Assembly: GCA_030684395.1 (NCBI GenBank) | Contig: JAUXTT010000017.1 | Span: 372,001 to 436,000 of the forward strand | Reading direction: 5' to 3' | Length of the DNA stretch: 64,000 bases | Source: Bacteroidota bacterium | GTDB lineage: Bacteria > Bacteroidota > Bacteroidia > B-17B0 > Aurantibacillaceae | Part shown: positions 32,942 through 46,773 of the stretch, one piece after another | Layout of the letters: every line of letters starts with the position of its first letter | Numbering within the stretch: the first letter of the stretch is position 1 | Made by a program: the position numbers and the translations under genes | The notes under the pieces: generated by a model | The model's database searches: none | Told to the model about the DNA's origin: nothing | What the model saw: the letters and a program-made list of their open reading frames with translations, nothing else

Positions 32942-34477
32942 ATGGCCGCAATTTTAGGTTCCATATTAAAAAGGGCAATTGAGTTAAGAGGGAAAATTCC
33001 TTCTAACCGCAAAACCGCTTTGAAACAGCAACTCAGTACTTTAAAAAAGTTAATGAAAAAGGCTGAGTTTACTGCTTTTGGGGAGCACTACAAATTTTCC
33101 GCAAAGCTAAAAGAGAAAAATTTTGTAAGGGCATTTCGTAGTGAAGTTCCTGCGCATGATTATAACAGTATGTTCAAAAACTGGTGGTACCGTTGCCTAA
33201 ACGGAGAACCATTTGTTTGCTGGCCGAATCATATAAAATACTTCGCGTTAAGCTCCGGAACTTCAGAAGCAGCCAGCAAACACATTCCTGTTACCAAAGA
33301 CACCCTTAAGGCAATTACCAAAGCAAGCTCCCGACAAGCATTAGGACTCGCTCACCTTGATCTTCCAAAAGAGTTCTATCAGAAAGGTGTTTTAATGATC
33401 GGTGGTAGTACTCATTTGAGTTTTAACGGAACTTATTATGAAGGAGACCTTAGTGGTATAACAACAGGTAATATTCCATTTTGGTTTCAATTTTTTTGCA
33501 GACCGGGTCCAAAGATTTCACGACACAAAGATTGGAATTCAAAACTAAACGATATTGTGTTGAACGCTCATAAATGGGATATTGGTGTTATTTGCGGAGT
33601 TCCTGCATGGATACAAATTATCTTTGAAAAGATAGTTGAGCATTATAAAGTAAAAACGATACACGATATTTGGCCTAACCTTCGTATATATATAAGCGGA
33701 GGTGTTTCTTATACTCCTTACTTAAAGAGCTTCGAAAAGCTCACTTCCTTTCCATTGATTTTTTTGGATACCTATTTAGCTTCTGAAGGATACATGGCGT
33801 TTGAAACAGGTGTAAACTCTAATGGAGCTATGAAGCTTATGCTGGATAACGGAATCTTTTTTGAGTTTATTCCTTTCAATGAAGAAAACTTTAATTCGGA
33901 CGGAGATCTTATTTCGAACCCAAAAACATTGTTGGTAAACGAAGTAGAAGAAGGTGTTGAATACGCGCCGCTTATCTCTACCTGTTCAGGTGCATGGAGA
34001 TATTTGATAGGTGATACACTTAAGTTTACAAATGTTGAAGAAAATGAAATACGAATCACCGGAAGAACCAAACATTTTTTGAGTATGTGCGGAGAACACC
34101 TGAGTGTAGATAACATGAACAAAGCCGTTGTTCTCACTTCTGCGGATTTGGGAATTGAAATAAAAGAATACACCGTATGTGGTGTACCATACAAAGGATT
34201 ATTTGCTCATCACTGGTACATTGGAACCGATATGACAATTGAATCAGAGAAAGTAAAACAAAGAATAGATGAGCACCTGAAAGTATTAAATGATGATTAC
34301 CGTGTAGAAAGAGGTCATGCTTTAAAGGATGTGATTGTTGAAGTTTTACCTCATCAGCGTTTTTTAGATTTTATGGAACACAAAGGTAAGCTTGGTTCTC
34401 AGCATAAATTTCCACGTGTTTTAAAAGGTAAAATGCTGGAAGACTGGGCGAATTTTTTAACCAAAAAAAACAACTAA
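32942..34477 (+). CDS. GH3-family acyl-adenylate ligase
   Basis: A 511-residue protein of the GH3 (auxin-responsive promoter) superfamily, which joins carboxylates to amino acids through an acyl-adenylate. The ATP-binding segment LSSGTSEAASKHIPVT (about 101-116) and the later YISGGVSYTPYLKSF, EGYMAF and ITGRTKHFLSMCGEHLSVD segments are characteristic. Bacterial members occur widely in Bacteroidota but their substrates are mostly unknown. It follows the M42 peptidase gene by 15 bases and precedes the LysE gene by 6, so all are likely one operon. Confidence 0.87.
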   Translation: MAAILGSILKRAIELRGKIPSNRKTALKQQLSTLKKLMKKAEFTAFGEHYKFSAKLKEKNFVRAFRSEVPAHDYNSMFKNWWYRCLNGEPFVCWPNHIKYFALSSGTSEAASKHIPVTKDTLKAITKASSRQALGLAHLDLPKEFYQKGVLMIGGSTHLSFNGTYYEGDLSGITTGNIPFWFQFFCRPGPKISRHKDWNSKLNDIVLNAHKWDIGVICGVPAWIQIIFEKIVEHYKVKTIHDIWPNLRIYISGGVSYTPYLKSFEKLTSFPLIFLDTYLASEGYMAFETGVNSNGAMKLMLDNGIFFEFIPFNEENFNSDGDLISNPKTLLVNEVEEGVEYAPLISTCSGAWRYLIGDTLKFTNVEENEIRITGRTKHFLSMCGEHLSVDNMNKAVVLTSADLGIEIKEYTVCGVPYKGLFAHHWYIGTDMTIESEKVKQRIDEHLKVLNDDYRVERGHALKDVIVEVLPHQRFLDFMEHKGKLGSQHKFPRVLKGKMLEDWANFLTKKNN

Positions 34478-35918: not shown

Positions 35919-37076
35919 ATGCAGACTTTTTCAGAGCTTGTATTAGACAAGTTAGACACATTGGTGGTTGTTGTAAACAATAGCGGTGATGTTGAGTATG
36001 TAAGTAAGTCCTCCAAAAAGCTGTTGGGCTACGAACCGGAGCAATTGCTCGGAGATCAGTGGTGGATAAAACCCAGACTCTCCGCAAGAGAAGGGCAAGA
36101 AATCAGGGAAAAGATCAAAAATCTTTTACTGCACGATTCGTCCAGTATTTCACAAAGATTTGAGCATGCGTTTAAAACATCACAAGGAATGATCAAATGG
36201 TTTAAATGGAGCTCAACCGTAGTTAATGAAAATCAATTAGTAGGTATTGGACTTGATATAACTGAGAAAAAGCTTTCAGAGCAGCGTATGTTGGAAGTGA
36301 ACCGCTCATTAACCGAAAGAAACAAAGAGATCACGGATAGCATCAACTATGCACAAAAGATACAGCAAGCTATTTTGCCTGACCCTTCCTTCTTGAAAGA
36401 GAAGTTTGCTGATGGATTTGTATTATACCAACCTAAAGACATAGTAAGCGGCGACTACTTTTTCTTTCACGAAACCGAAAGTAAAAAATATGTTGCGGCT
36501 ATAGACTGTACAGGACACGGCGTGCCCGGTGCCATGATGTCGGTTATTGCCAACTCTTTACTGAAAGAAGTATTCTTCAATAAAAAATTAGCAAGTCCGG
36601 AGGAAATTTTGTTTGAATTAGATGAATTACTATTCGAGGCCTTAAACAAAAATAACACCGAAGACATCCGTTATGATGGAATGGATATTTCTTTAATCTC
36701 GGTTGACAAACAAACCAATTTAATGGAGTTTGCCGGGGCAATGCGTCCTATATTCATCATACAGCAAGGTGTGCTCACTGAAATAAAAGGCAGTAAATTC
36801 CCTCTTGGTTTTCACCACTGTAAAAAAGATTTTGTACTGAATACCGTACAATTGAACGAAGGTGATATGATCTACCTTTCATCAGATGGCTATGGCGACC
36901 AATTTGGTGGCGACCGGAATAAAAAAATGAACAGAAGAGCTTTCAAGGAATTGTTACTATCCGTTGCAGATATGAGTGGAGAAGAGCAGGAAGCCTTTTT
37001 AGAATATGCGCACAAAAACTGGAAGCAAGATGAAGAACAAACAGATGATCTTTTGGTGATTGGTGTAAGGGTTTGA
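35919..37076 (+). CDS. PAS/SpoIIE PP2C-type serine phosphatase
   Basis: A 385-residue cytoplasmic protein: PAS domain (about 5-117, with YVSKSSKKLLGYEPEQLLG), linker coiled coil (118-150, ending YAQKIQQAILP) and SpoIIE phosphatase domain (about 160-385). Metal-binding residues are in SGDYFF (178-183), AIDCTGHGVPGAMMS (about 194-208), SSDGYGDQFGG (about 330) and TDDLLVIGV (about 375). It is the second such enzyme in the window, with a different sensor domain (PAS instead of GAF-like). It stands alone between the CACAGAG gap and a shared terminator with the convergent HD gene. Confidence 0.88.
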   Translation: MQTFSELVLDKLDTLVVVVNNSGDVEYVSKSSKKLLGYEPEQLLGDQWWIKPRLSAREGQEIREKIKNLLLHDSSSISQRFEHAFKTSQGMIKWFKWSSTVVNENQLVGIGLDITEKKLSEQRMLEVNRSLTERNKEITDSINYAQKIQQAILPDPSFLKEKFADGFVLYQPKDIVSGDYFFFHETESKKYVAAIDCTGHGVPGAMMSVIANSLLKEVFFNKKLASPEEILFELDELLFEALNKNNTEDIRYDGMDISLISVDKQTNLMEFAGAMRPIFIIQQGVLTEIKGSKFPLGFHHCKKDFVLNTVQLNEGDMIYLSSDGYGDQFGGDRNKKMNRRAFKELLLSVADMSGEEQEAFLEYAHKNWKQDEEQTDDLLVIGVRV

Positions 37077-37093
37077 GTATATAAAAATTAAAA

Positions 37094-37153
37094 GCTGCCC
37101 CGTTCGACTACCTGCCCCTCCGGCAGGCACTCAGCGACCGGCAGCCCTTTTTT
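37094..37153. terminator. Bidirectional terminator with an embedded repeat
   Basis: GCTGCC (37094-37099) pairs with GGCAGC (37140-37145). On the plus strand CC and a six-T tract (37148-37153) follow the stem, and on the minus strand TTTTAATTTTT follows it. Inside lies TTCGACTAC, a CCTGCC/GGCAGG hairpin (37111-37127) and CAGGCACTCAG. It serves the phosphatase and the convergent HD gene. Confidence 0.75.
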
Positions 37154-37160
37154 GTATTTA

Positions 37161-37706
37161 CTATTCCTGAATGTATTGATCGTATTCAATAATTTTTTCT
37201 TTGAGTCGCTGAGCGAGATATTCGTTCCCTTCTCCTAATTCTATCAAAATTAGCAAGGCCTCCTTTTTGTATTTTAGTCTCTTTTCAGCATCCCAAAAGG
37301 CAGGTGGCCTTTGAAGGTTGGTAATCCTGTCGGCAAGTTTAACCGCCCAAACTTCTTTATTGAGTTTTTTAATTCTACCTAAGGAATCCATCATCCGCTC
37401 TTCCTTGGGCAGGTCACTATTTTTAGTTAGCGCAGCAACAGCGTGCGCAACATCTATTCCATACAAATCGGTAAGTTCTTCAAAAGAAGTTGAAGTGTCT
37501 TCCAATGTATCATGTAACAAAGCTACTTTGATGGCAAAATTCGGATCAAACTCTTTAGTATTAAAAGAAGCAATCAATATTTCCATGGCCACATTACTTA
37601 AATGAACAACATAAGGAAGTTCTGTGCCCGGTATCTTTTGGTTTTGCTCAAGATGTTTTGCAGTTGCAAATTTTATAGTTTCCTGATAGATAGTTTGAAT
37701 GTCCAT
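37161..37706 (-). CDS. MESH1-like HD hydrolase (probable ppGpp hydrolase)
   Basis: A 181-residue protein containing only the HD hydrolase domain of the RelA/SpoT family. Metal and catalytic residues match MESH1/SAH: H35 (YVVHL), H65-D66 (LLHDT), E69-D70 and D126 with N130 (KLADRITN). It lacks synthetase, TGS and ACT domains, so it would be a stand-alone (p)ppGpp or related nucleotide pyrophosphohydrolase; MESH1 enzymes also act on NADPH. It is a single gene with a terminator directly after its stop codon. Confidence 0.83.
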   Translation of the reverse strand: MDIQTIYQETIKFATAKHLEQNQKIPGTELPYVVHLSNVAMEILIASFNTKEFDPNFAIKVALLHDTLEDTSTSFEELTDLYGIDVAHAVAALTKNSDLPKEERMMDSLGRIKKLNKEVWAVKLADRITNLQRPPAFWDAEKRLKYKKEALLILIELGEGNEYLAQRLKEKIIEYDQYIQE

Positions 37707-37814
37707 GTTTTATAATTCGGGTAAAATGCAGAACTTTTATTCGAGAATAAATTTAACAATTAAAAGACAAAACACCAGAATGTAATCATTTCCTGTAGTC
37801 TACTAACTGATTCA

Positions 37815-40232
37815 TCACCACTTATACTGTAAAGTAACATACCAATTAATAGGATCAGAAGGAAGTATTCCGGGACCGGGATACCCTTCTGCTCTTCTTG
37901 TAAAATAAGTATTGTTTGTCAGGTTATTTAACCCGCTTGCCAGTGTAAACCATTTCCAGGTATAGTTTACCGACCAGTCCATGACATAGAAAGCGGGAAT
38001 CAACCCTGTTGATCCGTCATTGGCTTTGGGTGTATTGCTTGCATCGCTATATTGTTGTGCCGTGTAGGAATACTGCAAAGTGGTTCCAAATTTTTTAGTT
38101 TTAAAACTTAAGCCTGTTCTACAAATAAACGTTGGGACAAACTCAACCAGTTTATTGGTAAAGGCTGCTTCTTTACTTCCAATGTATCGTGCATCAATGT
38201 ATGAAACGTTTGTAAACAGGCTAAGGTTTTTAGTGGTGTTCTTTTTAAATAATTTCAGGAAATTCAACTCAGCAAAACTCTCAATGCCCACATTTCTGCT
38301 ATCAGAAATATTGGTACGTAAGCGATACAATTGAACACCATCATCGCTTTTCAGGATCGTACCTATTCGATTGTTGTAACGAAGATAAAATACGCTCACA
38401 TCCGCATAAAAGAAATTTTTTACCGAAACACGGTAACCCATATCTGCCGTAAATCCATCTTCATCTTTTAAATTTGGATCCACTTTCAAATTAGGATTAA
38501 TTACACGCATATCATTAAAATTAATGGAGCGGTAATTCTGACTAATATTCAGGTACACTTCAGATATATCTGTTGGTTTAAACACTCCCCCAACACCTGC
38601 CAGTACAAAATTTCTGTCGTTGCGGTTCTTTTCATAATTCTGCTTGAAAAATATCGTGTCACCATTCAACAACGTATTTACTTCATTGTAATACCCCTTT
38701 GATTGTGTTGAGATATACTCATAACGCAAACCGGGCGTAATACTGAATCGTGAATTAATTAACCACAAATTTTCAGTAAATACTGCAATGTTTCTACTTG
38801 GAAAAAAATAATCAGAGCTTTCCAAGCGATCGGGATGAAGGTATTCAAATTCAGGTTTTGAGTTTGCACTTGCTGAACCCTGCTTGCGATAAGTGCTTCC
38901 ACTATAATAACGTGAACCGATTAAAAAGACTGAATTGCCTTTAAGAAATTTGTAACGGTGTAAAAATCTCAACTCTGATCCAACATTTTTGTAATCGTCC
39001 TGTAGCAAATCTCTGTTCTTTGTTGTATCATCCGGTCTGTCGGCACGTCCCAAAAAACCAAGGGCATCTCTACCCGCAAGCAGACCAAAAGAAACCCAAC
39101 TTAATTTTGTTCTGTCATTTATTTTGTAATTTAATTCGGTAGCGAATAAATTCCAATCTACTTTAAACCAGTTTCGCGGGCGCTTGCTTGCACTCGGGTC
39201 TTTATAAAAATCTTTGTCAGTAAGCCCGCCTGCTTGTTGAGCGAGGTAGTGATTGTAGGTGTATTCCACTTTAATACTTATGCTCTCGTTGATTTGGTAT
39301 TTAAGTGATGCATGTGCAGTTTGCTGATCGAATGCAGATCTTGGTCTCCAGCCAGTACCTTGTTTGTATTGAACAAATGTATAATAAGAGAGCTTTTTTA
39401 CTTTTCCATAAAAGGAATTAAAACTATTCAAGAACCCAAAGGAACCCAATGTTTGTCTGGAGATTACGTTGAATTTTTTTATTGCTTCATCTCCGTTCTT
39501 AAAACGAAAATTAATAAAACCTCCGAACTGTGTACCGTACTGCAAACTCGCTGCTCCACGTATGATCTCAATCCGTTCAACCGCTTCTGAAGGCGGAGAG
39601 TAATAACTCTCAGGGTAACCTAAAGCATCCGCACTTATATCATACCCGTTTTGGCGGGTATTAAAATTAGAAACACGATTCGGATTTAAACCTCTTCCTC
39701 CTATGCCCAATTGCAGACCGGCTCCGTCATTCTCAAAAATATTGATCCCCGCTACCTTTGCAAAAAGTTGCCTTTGATTATTGGTAGCCAAATTAGCATT
39801 CAGGTCTCCAATCAAAACCACTTCCGTCTTTTTTCCGGCATAGATTGCTGTTCCCTCTACATTATTCAACCGTGTAATCCCGAAATTATTTTCCTTTGCC
39901 GCTTCTATATTTACTTCCTGCAAGTCTTTAATATCACTTTCCAAAATAATAACAATGGAAGTGTCAGCCTGAACGGTAAGAATAAAGTTCTTTTTCTTAA
40001 ATCCGGTTTTACTCACAATAAACGAATGTTTTCCATTAGAAACAGAAAAGAATGATGTTGAGCTGTCACAATTACCGATAATCTTCTTGTCCATATTAAT
40101 TATGCAGCCGGCAATAGGATTACCCTTAACAGAATCTGCATACAAGGTCATTGTAACTTTGTACTCCTGGGCCATCAAGGACAGAGAAAAACAACACAGA
40201 AGGCTAAAAATATAAAGAGATCTCGTTAGCAT
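37815..40232 (-). CDS. TonB-dependent receptor, FecA-like
   Basis: An 805-residue outer-membrane receptor: signal peptide (1-21), carboxypeptidase-regulatory-like beta domain (about 22-105), plug (about 125-240; QLGIGGRGLNPNRVSNFNTR, ERIEIIRGAASLQYGTQFGG), then a 22-strand barrel ending ...WYVTLQYKW. The segment EGTAIYAGKKTEVV and the plug resemble Bacteroidota receptors annotated as ferric citrate (FecA) type. No N-terminal signalling domain of the FecA/FecR type is present. Its ATG overlaps the stop of the HTTM gene (TAATG), so it is the last gene of a four-gene operon. Confidence 0.88.
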   Translation of the reverse strand: MLTRSLYIFSLLCCFSLSLMAQEYKVTMTLYADSVKGNPIAGCIINMDKKIIGNCDSSTSFFSVSNGKHSFIVSKTGFKKKNFILTVQADTSIVIILESDIKDLQEVNIEAAKENNFGITRLNNVEGTAIYAGKKTEVVLIGDLNANLATNNQRQLFAKVAGINIFENDGAGLQLGIGGRGLNPNRVSNFNTRQNGYDISADALGYPESYYSPPSEAVERIEIIRGAASLQYGTQFGGFINFRFKNGDEAIKKFNVISRQTLGSFGFLNSFNSFYGKVKKLSYYTFVQYKQGTGWRPRSAFDQQTAHASLKYQINESISIKVEYTYNHYLAQQAGGLTDKDFYKDPSASKRPRNWFKVDWNLFATELNYKINDRTKLSWVSFGLLAGRDALGFLGRADRPDDTTKNRDLLQDDYKNVGSELRFLHRYKFLKGNSVFLIGSRYYSGSTYRKQGSASANSKPEFEYLHPDRLESSDYFFPSRNIAVFTENLWLINSRFSITPGLRYEYISTQSKGYYNEVNTLLNGDTIFFKQNYEKNRNDRNFVLAGVGGVFKPTDISEVYLNISQNYRSINFNDMRVINPNLKVDPNLKDEDGFTADMGYRVSVKNFFYADVSVFYLRYNNRIGTILKSDDGVQLYRLRTNISDSRNVGIESFAELNFLKLFKKNTTKNLSLFTNVSYIDARYIGSKEAAFTNKLVEFVPTFICRTGLSFKTKKFGTTLQYSYTAQQYSDASNTPKANDGSTGLIPAFYVMDWSVNYTWKWFTLASGLNNLTNNTYFTRRAEGYPGPGILPSDPINWYVTLQYKW

Positions 40233-41563
40233 TAATAAGGAAGTATCCAGGTCTTGTTTTTAAAGTCATCTTTCAAACTTGAAAGATCTATGGAAGAATC
40301 AACAAATCTTCGGCTACCTCCACCATTCAGGGTTACAAAAGCATCAGCCTTTACAGCAAAGTTTTCCATTCCTTTTTTTTCGAAATCATTCTTAATGATG
40401 CGGGCATATTGCAACATCATATCGGGTTGCGTGCACATCATTTTTTCCTGCATCGGAGTGAGGTAATCACAATTGCTTATCTCAATTTTTTTTCCACTCG
40501 TTTTATCCTCCACATAAAAAAAACTCGTCCCTGCCTTTTCCATCAACATAACCCGCCAGGAAAAACGAAAACCTTGTTCTGTCCAAAATAGTTTTCCTGG
40601 GTAAGCAATGTACCTGAAGGGCATCAGTAATTGAAAAAAGAAGAACAGACCCATTACATAAAAAAATATTCTGCGTTTAAAAATTGAATTAGAATACTGC
40701 TTTGTACTTGTATGTGTATTAAGGTCGGGCAAAAAACTCAGGAGTTTTTTGTGAAACTCTTCGGGAAAGAAAATAACTGTGAGAGCAATCATAATATACG
40801 GAAACATCCCAATATTAAACAAAGCACGTGTTGCGAGGTGAAATACTATCACAAAAAAATAGGCAATAAAAATGGTTTTGCGCCTTACCAATAAAAAAGG
40901 GATAAACAAGTCGTATACGCAACCAAACCAACTAAAGAAATACGCTACCCATAATTCATCCATTAAGCCTCCCACAACGGGAAGGTGATTTTGAGCAGGC
41001 AACCATATTCGCAAAGGCTGTGCCTCAAATAACCAATCGTAATTCAATTTAGCAACTCCTGCGAAAAAATAAACTATCAATACCTGAAACTTAATTGTCC
41101 ATATCCAATAGTTAGAAACGCTTTTCAACGAACTTCTTTTAAAAAAGAGGTTGTCCAGAGAATATGCTTTTGCTGCCGGAAGAAAAATAATGAGAAAACT
41201 CACCAGGCTAATAAAGTAGTAGTGGTTGAGATAATTGGTTTTGTCTATTAATTCAACGTAAGTGAACAAAAGAAAAAACAGAGTGGTGCTTATACGATAA
41301 AACAATCCTGTCATAATAAACAGAGCAGATATTAACATAAGACAAAAAACCGCATACATTCCGTTTGATGACAAAGGGCTTAGCCACTCAAACCCGTAGA
41401 AAGGAAAAAAGTGTTCGGGTTTAATGTACATATCGTACACCCATCCTTTCATTATAAACCGAAGGGTAGACAAAAACATCAACGCTCCAAAAGCAATTCT
41501 GAAAACTACCAGCGGGGCAATAGATACATCCCTTAACAGATTATTTTTTAGTTTGTTAATCAC
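40232..41563 (-). CDS. HTTM / vitamin K-dependent gamma-carboxylase-like membrane protein
   Basis: A 443-residue integral membrane protein with several helices and the HTTM (horizontally transferred transmembrane) domain. LIDKTNYLNHYY (residues 105-116) corresponds to the region of human gamma-glutamyl carboxylase that carries the catalytic lysine (here Lys108). YFFAGVAKLNYDWL is the second conserved block. A soluble C-terminal part (about 330-443) follows the last helix. It starts with GTG, 8 bases inside the imelysin gene, and ends one base into the receptor gene, so translation is tightly coupled. The reaction in bacteria is unknown; menaquinone-dependent oxidation or carboxylation is a hypothesis. 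Confidence 0.82.
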   Translation of the reverse strand: MINKLKNNLLRDVSIAPLVVFRIAFGALMFLSTLRFIMKGWVYDMYIKPEHFFPFYGFEWLSPLSSNGMYAVFCLMLISALFIMTGLFYRISTTLFFLLFTYVELIDKTNYLNHYYFISLVSFLIIFLPAAKAYSLDNLFFKRSSLKSVSNYWIWTIKFQVLIVYFFAGVAKLNYDWLFEAQPLRIWLPAQNHLPVVGGLMDELWVAYFFSWFGCVYDLFIPFLLVRRKTIFIAYFFVIVFHLATRALFNIGMFPYIMIALTVIFFPEEFHKKLLSFLPDLNTHTSTKQYSNSIFKRRIFFYVMGLFFFFQLLMPFRYIAYPGKLFWTEQGFRFSWRVMLMEKAGTSFFYVEDKTSGKKIEISNCDYLTPMQEKMMCTQPDMMLQYARIIKNDFEKKGMENFAVKADAFVTLNGGGSRRFVDSSIDLSSLKDDFKNKTWILPY

Positions 41564-42659
41564 CGTCGGTATCCTGATATGTAATTACAATTCCTAATGC
41601 GGAAGGCATGTCGGCTTTTAAAAGCACTACCAATCTTTGAAGTTCTGTATATGCCACATCAACAGGAGCCTGATTATTCACCACAGAGTTGTCCAGTGTT
41701 TCGGGGATCAGATTGATTTTTTCTTTTACCACTGTAAACTGATTGGTGATGGTTGCATTCAACGATGCTCCGTTGTATTGTGCGTTTAGAAAGTCGAGGT
41801 AATCATCAAACCCTTTTCCTGAATTTCCTAAATAAATTTTTTCTAAAGACTCCACATGCTTTTTCAACAATACCAAAGATGCTTTAGAATAATAAGCCTC
41901 ACATTTTTCCGGCAACACAACGCCTAATGTTTTTTTGCCCAAAGGAATTCCCACACGATAGTTTTTCGTGATCTCCAAATCCTGATTGAGCTGATTTACC
42001 AATAAACCAACAGAACTTCCTATATCACTTCCATTGCTTGAAATAAAAGTAGTGCGATAAGAAGAATTCCATTGATTTACTATAGATGTTGCTTTCGTTT
42101 TTAATTCTGCTACCAAAGCGATTAAATATCCGGATCTTTTAACTGCGTTTGAATCAATTGTAAAATGGTCGAGAATTTGTTGATCTGTTTTCCCTTTTCC
42201 GTACAATAAATAATCTAAGGCCGGATAGCCCTTAGCGTCAAAATTAGAAGCCATGTTCAAATCATAAACCTCCGTATTGATATTTGAATTTATCTGGGGT
42301 GTATCGCATGGAAATGTATTTGCTCCTGATCTGAAAACCTCACTCTCTGCCGGACCAAACTCAAAAGCAGAAACCACCTCAAAAGATAAATAAACATTCT
42401 GAAACTTTGCCCTCAACGAAAGGAGGTTTGCATTGTTTTTGTTGGAAATAAAAGTGGTAGTTGCAAGCTCCAGTGAATCGACACTTGATTTATAAGAAAT
42501 ATACGAAGGAATAATAATGTTATCGGCCATATTGGTCAATAACTCTGTTTTATTAAAATCGTCTTTCTGCTCTTCTTCTTTGTCCTTGTTTTTTTTACAC
42601 GCAGTAAAAATCAAAGAAAAACTTACGGCACTTATTATTAACAGTCTTTTATTTTTCAT
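41556..42659 (-). CDS. Imelysin-family lipoprotein
   Basis: A 367-residue lipoprotein (lipobox LIFTAC, Cys21) with the two four-helix-bundle halves of the imelysin/peptidase M75 family. At the site of the GxHxxE motif it has GYPALD (144-149), so the His and Glu are replaced by Pro and Asp; metal binding at that site is unlikely in the usual way. Family members are linked to iron uptake and many are not proteases. It sits between DUF4856 and the HTTM gene in one operon and probably hands the substrate to, or assists, the receptor at the outer membrane. Confidence 0.85.
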   Translation of the reverse strand: MKNKRLLIISAVSFSLIFTACKKNKDKEEEQKDDFNKTELLTNMADNIIIPSYISYKSSVDSLELATTTFISNKNNANLLSLRAKFQNVYLSFEVVSAFEFGPAESEVFRSGANTFPCDTPQINSNINTEVYDLNMASNFDAKGYPALDYLLYGKGKTDQQILDHFTIDSNAVKRSGYLIALVAELKTKATSIVNQWNSSYRTTFISSNGSDIGSSVGLLVNQLNQDLEITKNYRVGIPLGKKTLGVVLPEKCEAYYSKASLVLLKKHVESLEKIYLGNSGKGFDDYLDFLNAQYNGASLNATITNQFTVVKEKINLIPETLDNSVVNNQAPVDVAYTELQRLVVLLKADMPSALGIVITYQDTDGD

Positions 42660-42724
42660 TTTCTAAAAAATTCAACAAGGATTGATACTATTGCGATCAA
42701 CCCTTGTTACTAAACAAAAAGATT

Positions 42725-43855
42725 CTACAATTTCGTTGCATCCAAACCAAAGATACTTGCCATTTCATTAATAGCATTATCCATATTGGTTGTTGTTACC
42801 TGATACATGTTTGATCCAAAATAACCTAACAAAGTATTTATCTGAGCATCAGTAATTGTTTTTGAAGGATTGTATTTAAATGCTTTAATAAAACCAAGAC
42901 CTTCTGACAATGCATGATTGCGTTTCCCATCATCAGCAAAATTTGTTTTTGCTTGTTTTACATAAGTAATGAAGCGCCCTGCTGCAACTTTTTCCCATGT
43001 TTTGATCACTATATCTTTTTGAGCATCACGAACCGTATTGTCTTTGTTAGTTATAGCAGCACGTCCTTTAAGGAAGGCATTCATCATAGTTACATTAACA
43101 GAAGTTGCACTGTTTACATTTGGAGCATCTAAAGCATTACTCACCGAATTACAATAGCTTCCCCAGTTTTTTAAACCGGTAACAGTAGTCGGAAAATCAA
43201 CAGGCACTCCGAAGTATCCGAAAGCCTCATCCCAAGCGTGCTCCTGAGCAGTGGTTCCATTTGTTACAGTAGAGTTATCATAAGAACTAATATTGGTTAA
43301 AATAGTTGTCGCCTGATTATAAAATACTGCTGCCATCAAGCCTTTTTCTACAAACTCCTTGTATTCTACGCCGTTCCCATCAACAATGTATGCAGCTGTT
43401 CCGGAAGTTAACTTACCTGCCGTACCGTTAGAAGCTGTAGGAGTAGTTTGTGTAACAGTTCCAAGGTCGGTTAAATTACTTTCAATTTCAGATTGGAGAT
43501 TATAGGTGTTAGCTGTTTTGTCTTTTAATTGAAATCCACTTGTATTAAGTGATGGATCCACAATAAACTGGCTATTTAGGTTAGCATACATATCTTTCAT
43601 TTTCTGCGCATCCAAAACAGGGGTAGCTGTTGATGTGTGTGCTGTTTTAATATAGGTTGTGATTTCTCCTAACATTGCAATCCGCTTAGTAGAAGATGAA
43701 AAATCTACCGAAGTAAAGTTATAAGTTGTTGGAACCGTATAAGTAGGTGTTGATGAAGTCGGTGATGGCTCCGGAGTTTTATCCTTTTTACACGAGACAG
43801 ATAACATCGCTACAGGTAGTGCAATTAAAAGTGTTTTCTTAAATGATAATTTCAT
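42725..43855 (-). CDS. DUF4856 lipoprotein
   Basis: A 376-residue lipoprotein (lipobox LSVSC, Cys22) with a Pro/Thr/Ser linker after the anchor and a helical body. The segment AWDEAFGYFGVPVDFP (about 208-223) is what I recall as the DUF4856 signature. The overall arrangement of two helical repeats resembles the imelysin neighbour. It is the first gene of the four-gene operon, 65 bases upstream of imelysin. The function is unknown; the company suggests an iron- or metal-related periplasmic or surface role. Confidence 0.82.
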   Translation of the reverse strand: MKLSFKKTLLIALPVAMLSVSCKKDKTPEPSPTSSTPTYTVPTTYNFTSVDFSSSTKRIAMLGEITTYIKTAHTSTATPVLDAQKMKDMYANLNSQFIVDPSLNTSGFQLKDKTANTYNLQSEIESNLTDLGTVTQTTPTASNGTAGKLTSGTAAYIVDGNGVEYKEFVEKGLMAAVFYNQATTILTNISSYDNSTVTNGTTAQEHAWDEAFGYFGVPVDFPTTVTGLKNWGSYCNSVSNALDAPNVNSATSVNVTMMNAFLKGRAAITNKDNTVRDAQKDIVIKTWEKVAAGRFITYVKQAKTNFADDGKRNHALSEGLGFIKAFKYNPSKTITDAQINTLLGYFGSNMYQVTTTNMDNAINEMASIFGLDATKL

Positions 43856-43898
43856 AAATTATATATATTGTTATTTAGATTGATTTTAAACTTCGTGG

Positions 43899-43906
43899 CA
43901 AATGTA
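43899..43906 (-). promoter_or_regulatory. -7 box upstream of the DUF4856 operon
   Basis: TACATTTG (exact TAnnTTTG) lies 43 bases before the ATG on the minus strand. No convincing -33 TTG was found. The adjacent sequence TACCTAAAATAGGGTA (43930-43945) is an imperfect inverted repeat that could be an operator. Confidence 0.45.
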
Positions 43907-43976
43907 GATACAATGGCAGGAGTGCGCCATACCTAAAATAGGGTATTTTAACAAAAACTGAGATTTATCAGTGCTT

Positions 43977-44192
43977 TCAGACTTTTCTGAATCGGGGCAA
44001 GATGCGCCCTTTCACATTCACCTCTTCGGTAAACATACTTAAAGGTCTAACCCAAAGGTTGTTACCCTCTTCCTGGTAAAGAGCTTTGTAAATAACGAGT
44101 GTCTCTAGTGTTTCAGAATGTTTAGCAATTCCGATCACTTCATACTCATTTCCTTTGTAGTGTTTGTATTTACCTAATAGAATACTTTGCAT
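43977..44192 (-). CDS. DUF1653 domain protein
   Basis: A 71-residue protein that matches the small DUF1653 family over its whole length: GKYKHYKGNEYEVIGIAKHSETLE and YQEEGNNLWVRPLSMFTEEV. The function is unknown. It is 11 bases downstream of the DNA glycosylase gene on the same strand and is probably cotranscribed with it. Confidence 0.85.
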   Translation of the reverse strand: MQSILLGKYKHYKGNEYEVIGIAKHSETLETLVIYKALYQEEGNNLWVRPLSMFTEEVNVKGRILPRFRKV

Positions 44193-44203
44193 TATCCCGA
44201 AAA

Positions 44204-44830
44204 TTATTTTGTTGTGAGGGGTGCGTTATCCTTATGTCTCCATAAATATTTGCAAGCAATTGTTCGGTAAGGGCTCCATTTTTCGGCTATCTTATGCATG
44301 TCGGATTTTAGTTCTTTCTTTTCAGAATTTACTCCATATAGTTTTTTTATCGCAGTTTGAATTCCCAAATCGTCTTCCGGGAAAACATCTTCACGCCCCA
44401 AAGTAAACATTAGAATCATCTGAACCGTCCATTTGCCAACACCTTTGATTTGGGTAAGGTGCTCAATCAAATCTTCGTCCTTTAATTTCTTCAGCTTTTT
44501 GTATTCCAAACCTTCTTCCAAAGCAAACTTAGCTATGTTCTGAATGTATCCTGCTTTTTGATACGACAAGCCAACTCCCCTAAGTTTTTCCACATTCATT
44601 TTAATAACCAGTTCCGGTTTTGGGTCTTCATTTGGAAATAAGGTAACAAAGCGTTTCCAAATGGTATCAGCCGCTTTTACTGATAGCTGTTGGCTTACAA
44701 TAGAGCCCAACAAGGAACCATACAGGTCGGTATCGATTTTGTGGTCAATTGCACCATGAGTATCAATAACCTTTTTCAGCTTCTTGTCTTTACTCAAATG
44801 TGAAAGTATGTTTGCTTTAACCTTAGCCAT
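44204..44830 (-). CDS. HhH-GPD DNA-3-methyladenine glycosylase
   Basis: A 208-residue base-excision glycosylase of the AlkA/HhH-GPD superfamily. It has the SIVSQQLSVKAADTIWKRF segment (about 43-61), the helix-hairpin-helix LTQIKGVGKWTVQMI (125-139) and the catalytic Asp154 in FPEDDLGIQ. It has no iron-sulphur cluster cysteines, so it is of the AlkA/Mag type and not of the MutY/Nth type. Expected role: removal of alkylated purines. Its ATG overlaps the stop of the M1 peptidase gene (TAATG), a tight coupling between unrelated functions. Confidence 0.88.
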   Translation of the reverse strand: MAKVKANILSHLSKDKKLKKVIDTHGAIDHKIDTDLYGSLLGSIVSQQLSVKAADTIWKRFVTLFPNEDPKPELVIKMNVEKLRGVGLSYQKAGYIQNIAKFALEEGLEYKKLKKLKDEDLIEHLTQIKGVGKWTVQMILMFTLGREDVFPEDDLGIQTAIKKLYGVNSEKKELKSDMHKIAEKWSPYRTIACKYLWRHKDNAPLTTK

Positions 44831-46773
44831 TATTCTTTTACAAACTTAAGTGTTTTTATCTGCTCATTATCGGTTGAACTCAAAGTAATAAAATACATTC
44901 CCTGACTAAGTTCCTGAATAGAAATTACATTTTCTACAGATGAAATGCTTCCGCTTTTAATCATTTTTGTTGTTACATCAAATAATGCATAATGAATCGT
45001 TTTTTGCACAGGCATACTGATCATTACTTTTTCTTTTGCCGGATTTGGGAATAGATGTACCGAGGCTGCAAATAATTCATTTTCGCTGAGGCCAACAAGG
45101 CTTGCGTCCTGGGTTACCGTTCCTTTATTCAATACCCAGTTGTTAGGATCGGTTGTAACATTGGTTACGGTACCGCCAACAGAAAAAGTATAATTTTCAA
45201 TAGCTTGTGTTTGATCAAACTTCACAACAGTATCGCCGATAGAGCGGGTTAATTTATATTCCAAAGGCGTGATAAACAAAGGTGTAACACCGGACATAGA
45301 AACAGTTTCTGTGTTCTTCAAATAAAAAGTATTCCCTACCTGATTCCATCTTACTGTAAAAGTAGGGTAACCTTCGCCAAAAATCCACTGGTTAAAAAAC
45401 TGGGTAAGATCAAGCCCTGTGGTAGTTTCTGCCACCGTTTTAAAATCGTTGATGGATGCTGTTCCGTTCCCAAACTGAGTTTGGTAGTTCTTAAGTACAG
45501 TAAAAAATAAATTATCGTCATTAATTACAAAACGAAGTGTATGAATAATTGCACAACCTTTGTCGTAAGATAAACGCGAACTGAAAATACGGTTGATACT
45601 TGTTGTATCAGGATTGTAAACACTTCCACCCGGTTGACTCATTACATTATTATGTACCTGCAACATATTTGCCGGTGCATTGGCGGCATCAAATTGTTCC
45701 AGTGCCAATTGTTCTGAATAGGATGCAAAACCCTCGTTCACAAAAATATCGTTCCAGGTACGGCAAGTAACATTATCTCCCCACCACTGATGTCCAAGCT
45801 CGTGTGCAATCAATCCGAAGTCAAAAAAGCCCAAAGAGGTCATTGTTTGATGTTCCATACCGCCACTAAAAGGTGCCATACAATGCCCGTACTTCTGATC
45901 ATAAAAAGGATACATGCCGTATATGTCTGAAAAATATTCGATCAGTTCAGCTGTTTGATCAATTATAGTTTGAAATGCCGGAAGTGTTGCAGGATTATCA
46001 TATACATAATTTTGAATCAATATCGAATCAGTCATCCCCGCAGGGTGTGCGTAAATACTGTAATCCACATACTTTGCAACAGCTACTGAAATAAGGTAAT
46101 AATCAATAAAACGGTTGTTTTCCCACTCGTATCTTTTTTTATTTCCAACAGTAACAACATTTTTCAATACGCCGTTTGATCCAACTTTATTGGTAGAATC
46201 AGTTGTAATATAAACATAACTCGAATCGGCTTTATCCTGCAATTGCTGTTTACATGGCCACCATTCAAAAGCTGCATAGGGCTCACTTAATGTCCACGTT
46301 ACCTGATTACCCCAGGAGCCGGAAGTTCCATTGCTCATGCCTGCATCAGAGCCTGAAGGAGGTGTTCCATGATAATAGATAGTTGCATCGATCATGTCGT
46401 TTTGATTCAGAGTTACAGGAAGTGTATACGTAACAGCATCTCCGGCTCTCACTGGCATTAATAAACTACCATTTATTCTGGCTGAATCGATGATCATAGT
46501 ACTGTATAATTCCAACGCATACACATCCAGTGTTGGTGCTACCACTTTTGCAATTGTTCTTACGCTGCCACTAATGTCTTTGTTAATTCTCTCAACATTT
46601 ATATTTAAGTGATTAAACTTCACATCGTATTTATTTTCCAAGGCAACATGCGACATAGGGACGGCTTGAACCTGTGCACTTGAATTTATTTTTGAAATGG
46701 AACAACTATTTTGTGCACCCAAACTTAAAACTAAAAGCCCCGGGCAGATCGCAAATAATAAACGTTTTTGCAT
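44830..46773 (-). CDS. T9SS-secreted M1-family metallopeptidase
   Basis: A 647-residue protein with a signal peptide (1-20), an M1 N-terminal beta domain (about 45-245) and a catalytic domain. The GGMEHQT exopeptidase motif, zinc site HELGHQWWG (about 321-329) and NEGFASY downstream (third ligand Glu) are intact. The C-terminus is a type IX sorting domain (about 570-647, starting VHLFPNPAKE). It is therefore a cell-surface or extracellular aminopeptidase. It is followed by the glycosylase and DUF1653 genes in the same direction. Confidence 0.9.
   Translation of the reverse strand: MQKRLLFAICPGLLVLSLGAQNSCSISKINSSAQVQAVPMSHVALENKYDVKFNHLNINVERINKDISGSVRTIAKVVAPTLDVYALELYSTMIIDSARINGSLLMPVRAGDAVTYTLPVTLNQNDMIDATIYYHGTPPSGSDAGMSNGTSGSWGNQVTWTLSEPYAAFEWWPCKQQLQDKADSSYVYITTDSTNKVGSNGVLKNVVTVGNKKRYEWENNRFIDYYLISVAVAKYVDYSIYAHPAGMTDSILIQNYVYDNPATLPAFQTIIDQTAELIEYFSDIYGMYPFYDQKYGHCMAPFSGGMEHQTMTSLGFFDFGLIAHELGHQWWGDNVTCRTWNDIFVNEGFASYSEQLALEQFDAANAPANMLQVHNNVMSQPGGSVYNPDTTSINRIFSSRLSYDKGCAIIHTLRFVINDDNLFFTVLKNYQTQFGNGTASINDFKTVAETTTGLDLTQFFNQWIFGEGYPTFTVRWNQVGNTFYLKNTETVSMSGVTPLFITPLEYKLTRSIGDTVVKFDQTQAIENYTFSVGGTVTNVTTDPNNWVLNKGTVTQDASLVGLSENELFAASVHLFPNPAKEKVMISMPVQKTIHYALFDVTTKMIKSGSISSVENVISIQELSQGMYFITLSSTDNEQIKTLKFVKE

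Follow-up and report, generated by a model that had tools for sequence, protein, structure and literature searches.

An operon in which a relative of the human vitamin K-dependent gamma-carboxylase (GGCX) stands beside a TonB-dependent receptor and two lipoproteins was analysed in a Bacteroidota bacterium (assembly GCA_030684395.1, contig JAUXTT010000017.1); coordinates are those of the 64 kb stretch that was examined, here called the window. Four minus-strand open reading frames (ORFs) encode, in order, a DUF4856 lipoprotein, an imelysin-like lipoprotein, an HTTM/VKGC membrane protein (HTTM hereafter) and the receptor. Their grouping is a real, phylum-wide unit with adjacency far beyond chance, and a role of the operon in iron supply is highly probable. 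GGCX-type chemistry in HTTM is reasonably probable and likely serves iron uptake, and as a full explanation we lean towards an iron-acquisition operon equipped with a GGCX-type enzyme.

Conservation of the operon

The genes are closely coupled, with a 65-base gap between DUF4856 and imelysin, an eight-base overlap between imelysin and HTTM, in which the HTTM start GTG ATT AA lies inside the last imelysin codons GGT GAT TAA, and a one-base TAATG overlap between HTTM and the receptor. A first-pass annotation, made from the sequence without database searches, had placed the four genes, the gap and both overlaps exactly so, and all were confirmed in the window. HTTM, VKGC, DUF4856 and imelysin each have a single match in the genome.

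A search with 19 aligned HTTM proteins supplied the best 80 of at least 545 relatives, a set biased towards close ones, and the full order DUF4856-imelysin-HTTM-receptor occurs at 73 of these 80 loci (loci and genomes carry L and G numbers below). The remaining seven comprise three without an adjoining DUF4856, three with HTTM and receptor only (two cut by contig ends, and L048, which is genuine) and one with its receptor cut by a contig end. The genes upstream of DUF4856 in the window, an HhH-GPD glycosylase and an M1 peptidase, have relatives at 0/80 and 2/80 loci, and because they almost never accompany related loci the unit is taken to end at DUF4856.

An even census, in which all VKGC hits were examined in 296 Bacteroidota genomes spread over the phylum and at least 90% complete, gave 78 hits in 68 genomes, the window included, or 79 HTTM ORFs, one hit being split in two. 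The full four-gene order was found for 56/79, and 61/79 lie between an imelysin and a TonB receptor. Four have imelysin and receptor without DUF4856 (two of them at contig ends), L184 of genome G310 has the order imelysin-di-haem-imelysin-HTTM-receptor, and 18 stand without any partner. The receptor adjoins HTTM at 79/80 loci, the remaining one being cut by a contig end, and in 61/61 census operons. The two surveys share some genomes and records and are not independent. The proposal that the four families form a functional unit is thus borne out, their order being kept across the phylum rather than adjacent here only.

DUF4856 and VKGC occur together in 46 of the 296 genomes (VKGC in 68, DUF4856 in 50; odds ratio 117, Fisher p 3e-32, uncorrected for phylogeny), and among 60 closer relatives in 16 (VKGC in 18, DUF4856 in 17). 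In genomes G003 and G018, DUF4856 is placed elsewhere, away from the HTTM operon. On an 84-row tree, some branches of which are long and uncertain, the operon label needs 3 changes as against 19.5 when shuffled.

Clustering of ORFs of at least 100 amino acids around the 80 loci yielded no extra conserved partner gene. LuxR-type response regulators, with one of them checked in Pfam, make up the largest cluster, present at 18/80 loci (e.g. L064:6905-7567). Of its 21 ORFs, 14 lie some 3 kb from HTTM on the upstream side, and most of the loci have the gene close to DUF4856, upstream of it; the scanned part of the window holds none.

Signs of iron control

A Fur consensus was taken from the accessible part of a Riemerella anatipestifer study (PMC5609570), and sites matching at least 15 of its 19 positions were called Fur-box-like. 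The sole such site in the window, at 43873-43891, lies just upstream of DUF4856, and comparable sites precede DUF4856 in 56/76 cases of the 80-locus set and 50/56 of the census, as against 20/680 upstream regions of other genes at the 80 loci and 1.3% of shuffled sequences. The genome carries a FUR-family gene, and Fur would bind at the putative window site. By these sequence signs the operon carries the mark of iron-starvation control.

Genes found outside the four-gene operon may keep such a site, each at 16/19: the lone operon-clade HTTM L159 of genome G164, the separate di-haem operon L264 in which the IPPA-like imelysin of that genome sits, and the unlinked DUF4856 of G003 (L141). In genomes without VKGC, the four DUF4856 genes have no upstream site that reaches 15/19. 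Ten HTTM genes linked to riboflavin kinase, described below, score 10-13/19 in the 150-base upstream region, none reaching 15, and extending the scan to 1,300 bases brings L181 alone to 15/19. The six HTTM-less di-haem operons are divided, with at least 15/19 in L262, L264 and L272 and lower scores in L145 (12), L261 (13) and L263 (14).

Published expression data point the same way. In Table 4 of the Riemerella study, a like gene set under the consecutive tags RAYM_09779-09794 is induced by iron restriction (TonB receptor RAYM_09779, 2.11; vitamin K-dependent gamma-carboxylase 09784, 2.64; imelysin RAYM_09789, 3.07; hypothetical protein RAYM_09794, 2.41), the ratios being taken as log2 in view of the cut-off given and the presence of negative values (PMC5609570). 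By its position RAYM_09794 would be DUF4856. The set is listed in that table, and the accessible part of the paper does not discuss the carboxylase; in a second Riemerella iron study the words carboxylase, HTTM and imelysin are absent. When the iron regulator MliR is mutated in Bizionia, the genes that go down include an imelysin-like one, which may belong to another operon, according to the accessible part of PMC9478572.

HTTM and human GGCX

By phmmer, HTTM matches human GGCX at 2e-37 over residues 9-442 (434 residues). Its predicted model (pLDDT 92.0, from 33 sequences) aligns to GGCX residues 41-505 with Z 32.2, a root-mean-square deviation of 3.2 over 432 residues and 27% identity, and the best unrelated structure reaches Z 6.8. 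HTTM therefore combines the HTTM and VKGC_lumenal domains with a GGCX fold in the predicted model. Compared with the human enzyme (PDB 9wfc, 9l6q, 9bux), it shares the predicted fold across its whole length and the catalytic Lys218, Asn159 and His160, but stops at the equivalent of residue 505, lacking the remainder of the lumenal domain (the C-terminal third), and its genome has no VKOR.

Residue roles were mapped from the accessible part of PMC12589487 onto 16 operon-type sequences. The GGCX base Lys218 corresponds to K172, and the pair that holds the Glu side chain, Asn159 and His160, to N113 and H114, in 16/16 sequences; Asp153, Ala214, Trp223, Gly259, Phe286, Phe299, Ser398 and Met402 are likewise retained in 16/16, and Phe294 in 15/16. 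The third Glu contact, Tyr395, is Tyr in 12/16 and Phe in 4/16, the window HTTM being among the latter. Replaced in operon-type HTTM are Lys217, Asn158, Met401, Tyr425, Arg436 and the Cys99-Cys450 pair, and the window protein is accordingly without the propeptide and Gla-backbone contacts (Asn158, Tyr425, Arg436; Gla, gamma-carboxyglutamate), as well as the full lumenal domain. Lys172 is invariant in an alignment of 35 HTTM sequences that includes distant ones. The gamma-carboxylase-like identity first given to this protein is therefore well founded, the catalytic core being intact. The Lys of a DKTxxxNHYY block, to which attention had been drawn, is present as K108 but is not the base: it aligns with human Lys154 and is Lys in 13/16 sequences, and K172 lies outside the block. 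The GGCX core looks active, and it is likely that the catalytic chemistry has been kept and the human mode of holding the substrate has not.

As for the quinone, the genome has two PF02621 (futalosine-type) hits and seven UbiA-family hits, six of them over the cut-off, and no hit to MenA TIGR00751; menaquinone is probably made via the futalosine route. Another bacterial GGCX homologue is the VKGC of Leptospira, a genus said in the available portion of PMC4555120 to hold both VKOR and carboxylase homologues.

The lipoproteins, the receptor and related systems

The imelysin family profile aligns through the last residue of the Psychrobacter IPPA structure 3pf0, and both proteins end in DGD. The lipid-anchored Cys21 of imelysin is invariant in 78 homologues, and Cys22 of DUF4856 is conserved in 93% of 74. 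The accessible part of PMC3143127 defines IPPA by a GxxxxE motif without the His. The window protein has GYPALD, with Pro for His and Asp (residue 149) for the terminal Glu, and because that Glu is replaced it is called IPPA-like, not IPPA. The motif ends in Asp in 78% and in Glu in 11% of 136 HTTM-linked imelysin rows (134 distinct), and in Glu in 6/6 HTTM-unlinked imelysins and in both from loci with di-haem peroxidase and HTTM. At the C-terminus, imelysins of HTTM operons end in DGD in 76/78 cases (window 41559-41573, minus strand), one exception being a broken-up gene. Terminal DGD was rejected as an HTTM tag, since the six HTTM-unlinked imelysins, the imelysin of genome G047, which has lost HTTM from its operon, and Psychrobacter 3pf0 all end in DGD.

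IPPA-like imelysins occur in two settings, either in the company of a di-haem peroxidase with two CxxCH motifs and a first imelysin (L145, L261-L264, L272) or with HTTM. Both enzymes are present in Persicobacter L104 and in L184 (G310), and five of the six di-haem examples come from genomes that hold HTTM too, the two enzymes thus often occurring in one cell; PF06537 was confirmed on L145, L104 and L184. The IPPA-like imelysin thus seems to be partnered by an enzyme that uses oxygen or peroxide. The analogy would be with di-haem enzymes of the MauG/MbnH type, which modify partner proteins.

Close known counterparts are Pseudomonas aeruginosa PA4370-4373 and the Leptospira LruB operon, which share the IPPA-like imelysin with terminal DGD, have the same pairing as is found in Bacteroidota and are Fur- or iron-regulated (PMC3143127 and PMC13066512, accessible parts). 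Here, in contrast, DUF4856 takes the place of the first imelysin and HTTM that of the peroxidase, with both enzymes at L104 and L184. A location of the Leptospira VKGC inside the LruB operon was considered and rejected: the available main texts describe imelysin, di-haem protein and imelysin with a receptor close by, and nowhere use the word carboxylase. The ferrous transporter EfeUOB/M has an M75/imelysin-fold partner in common with this operon, but the EfeU/FTR1 family was not found among eight window genes scanned, and IPPA retains few residues of the EfeM metal site, as far as the available text of PMC9174327 goes.

For DUF4856, an AlphaFold2 model (pLDDT 91.8) is mostly helical and has no clear PDB match. 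For a putative hidden imelysin fold in DUF4856, comparison with imelysins by hhalign gives a probability of 83.7 and E 8e-6, but over 112 columns starting in the signal peptide, and the model reaches Z 4.9 (3n8u) and 4.6 (7q1g) against imelysin structures, among unrelated structures of up to 7.8.

The receptor had been described as FecA-like. It is a TonB receptor by both its domains, and its likeness to FecA is weak, with 101.7 bits against the NCBIfam FecA model NF041676 (cut-off 1100) and scores below the cut-off for siderophore models also; as far as sequence goes, the label reaches iron/siderophore-type at most.

Search for a carboxylation target

Across the 136 HTTM-linked imelysin rows, the only columns with Glu in at least 60% are Glu229, Glu254 and Glu339, and Glu254 is also present in all six HTTM-unlinked imelysins. 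Glu339 is found in 103/136 linked rows, 0/6 unlinked ones and 2/2 from loci with di-haem peroxidase and HTTM, and is Lys in G047; it is Ala, Gln or another residue in 33/136 and was picked from hundreds of columns uncorrected, and 5/6 of the unlinked imelysins come from genomes with HTTM elsewhere. A fixed HTTM-specific Glu in imelysin was therefore rejected, Glu339 being the only candidate and not invariant. The same holds for an invariant receptor or DUF4856 Glu lost together with HTTM, as the receptor Glu residues conserved at 85% or more and DUF4856 Glu318 are all retained in G047.

No Gla-like cluster of Glu was found, the maximum being two (lipoproteins) or three (receptor) Glu columns of at least 60% per 45 residues, unlike a Gla domain. 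The linkers that follow the lipid-anchored Cys, with the lipobox assigned by a simple rule in 92, 123 and 123 sequences, are not Glu-rich, with 1.63 for imelysin and 1.89 for DUF4856 versus 2.18 for control lipoproteins (p 0.006 and 0.18), and their Asp content is about twice that of the controls (3.49 and 3.07 versus 1.70). Should the enzyme act on disordered stretches, conservation by position may not be the right measure. DUF4856 does not stand beside HTTM in some operons and is therefore less likely to be the sole substrate.

Proposed mechanism and alternatives

In the iron-acquisition reading, Fur would repress the operon when iron is plentiful, and under shortage the TonB receptor would bring a ferric chelate across the outer membrane, with the IPPA-like imelysin and the DUF4856 lipoprotein as its outer-membrane or periplasmic partners. 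HTTM would be an inner-membrane enzyme of the GGCX kind with its active site towards the periplasm, in which Lys172 would deprotonate menaquinol and O2 would convert menaquinol to a strong base. That base would remove a proton beside a carboxylate held by Asn113 and His114, and CO2 would then add. The substrate would lie within the same system, with imelysin as a first guess, or the receptor during its passage through the periplasm; that it is a protein of this operon is a tentative choice to which we give somewhat less than even weight. Modification as such is plausible, though unproven. The wider idea that menaquinol, O2 and CO2 build a malonate-type, Gla-like ligand on a component of TonB-dependent uptake under iron shortage, a bacterial gamma-carboxylation for iron capture, is doubtful.

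Several observations weigh against an iron-acquisition operon built around a GGCX-type enzyme. HTTM is dispensable in at least one lineage: in G047 (L135:4727-9376), a natural loss, the order DUF4856-imelysin-receptor has no HTTM between imelysin and receptor, the best Fur-box-like match is 11/19, and the genome also carries an imelysin-di-haem-imelysin operon. L048 pairs HTTM and receptor without adjoining lipoproteins, and no site of at least 15/19 precedes the unlinked DUF4856 of G018 or the lead imelysins of G003 and G018. VKOR (PF07884) is absent from the genome itself, from 58/60 genomes searched and from 17/18 of the VKGC-bearing ones among these 60; there is therefore no known recycling of a quinone epoxide. 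The four sequence tests pinned down no substrate Glu, and the Leptospira VKGC, the only bacterial one known to us to have been studied, is reported to epoxidise vitamin K without clear carboxylase activity. Control is not simple either, as in the available part of the Riemerella study the four genes still respond to iron in a fur mutant (2.70, 2.77, 2.92 and 3.07), and Fur is therefore at most part of the control there (PMC5609570). The link to metal supply drawn in the first-pass annotation is supported by the enriched Fur-box-like sites and the published induction by iron restriction in Riemerella, with Fur not the whole of the control there.

The same annotation had supposed that HTTM gamma-carboxylates Glu residues of both the imelysin and the DUF4856 lipoprotein for metal binding. 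The gene overlap, an active site expected to face the periplasm, the conserved Glu-pocket residues and the way in which Glu339 tracks linkage to HTTM (103/136 versus 0/6, and Lys where HTTM is lost) all fit such a role, but Glu339 varies in 33/136 rows and was selected without correction, with 5/6 of the unlinked imelysins coming from genomes that possess an HTTM, and the missing Glu cluster, the Asp-rich linkers and the lost propeptide and Gla-backbone contacts leave the claim unsupported so far. Gla on the lipoproteins is unproven, and the idea, lowered and still standing, is rather unlikely.

Alternatively, HTTM might be a menaquinol oxidase or ferric reductase that carries out no carboxylation and serves as a haem-free stand-in for the di-haem peroxidase. 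The two settings of IPPA-like imelysins, with di-haem peroxidase and another imelysin or with HTTM, would suit this, as would the conserved quinone pocket; the residues that hold a Glu side chain, Asn159 and His160, are nevertheless conserved in 16/16 operon-type sequences, and we regard such an oxidase as unlikely. As a plain substitute for the peroxidase, HTTM is a weakened candidate, since L104 and L184 carry both enzymes.

HTTM might instead deprotonate or carboxylate an imported carboxylate chelator, of the citrate or hydroxycarboxylate type, and so weaken its grip on iron. Of the neighbours of HTTM the receptor is the most constant (79/80 loci and 61/61 census operons), and it bears a weak likeness to FecA; the Glu pocket might take a free carboxylate, and no conserved Glu would be necessary. 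Two operon-clade HTTM genes, however, have no adjoining receptor (Persicobacter L104, and L159), the receptor of L184 is distant (9e-22), and no GGCX relative is known to us to use a free chelator as its substrate; this reading is quite improbable.

If the iron-acquisition reading with carboxylation is true, GGCX-type protein carboxylation would be a widespread bacterial post-translational modification with a function in iron capture, not one confined to animals; if carboxylation is false, the GGCX core would turn out to have a different reaction to serve. For the role of the bacterial relatives of the clotting-factor carboxylase, a phylum-wide operon with a Fur-box-like site offers a precise and cheap test. 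A full-text literature search, with subscription journals and preprints outside its scope, returned no match for DUF4856, nor for imelysin in combination with HTTM, and within the same scope none of the titles and abstract openings presents the operon as a system.

Other settings of HTTM/VKGC and features of the window

A second Bacteroidota type of HTTM/VKGC gene directly follows a riboflavin kinase/FAD synthetase gene in 10/10 loci (10 of the 18 partnerless census ORFs), with a seryl-tRNA synthetase gene downstream in 7/10; these genes cluster together on the tree with modest support (83/62). An alphaproteobacterial homologue with 32% identity, its base Lys aligned, lies on a Paracoccus albus plasmid (L102:7974-9365), where imelysin, DUF4856 and receptor are absent among 17 annotated features around it.

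Table 1. Features of the operon in the window, and loci of the riboflavin-kinase-linked HTTM type
Feature	Position	Strand	Basis
DUF4856 lipoprotein, first gene	42725..43855	-	PF16148 1.6e-37 (Pfam)
Imelysin-like lipoprotein, IPPA-like	41556..42659	-	PF09375 (Peptidase_M75) 1.5e-32; GYPALD instead of GxHxxE; C-terminus DTDGD
HTTM/VKGC protein, GTG start	40232..41563	-	PF05090 1.3e-77 and PF22777 VKGC_lumenal 2.1e-52; candidate base Lys172, candidate Glu pocket Asn113 and His114
TonB-dependent receptor, siderophore/FecA-like	37815..40232	-	PF00593 2.5e-26 and PF07715 plug
Fur-box-like site GTTTAAAATCAATCTAAAT	43873..43891	-	17 bases before DUF4856 ATG; 15/19 to Riemerella Fur consensus
Possible Bacteroidota -7 promoter element TACATTTG	43899..43906	-	Compared with the consensus TAnnTTTG
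Riboflavin-kinase-linked HTTM loci	L150:7861-11513, L151, L152, L176-L182		Families assigned with Pfam for L150 and with phmmer for the remaining loci

The candidate promoter element TACATTTG was judged against TAnnTTTG, which we take to be the Bacteroidota -7 consensus. An Rfam scan of window positions 36000-46000 gave no match at gathering thresholds. Elsewhere in the window, an M1-family peptidase that carries a C-terminal sorting domain for type IX secretion is encoded at 44830-46773, and a protein with all three domains of the GH3 family, presumably that of the acyl-acid amido synthetases of plants, is encoded at 32942-34477, adjoined by a LysE-type exporter.

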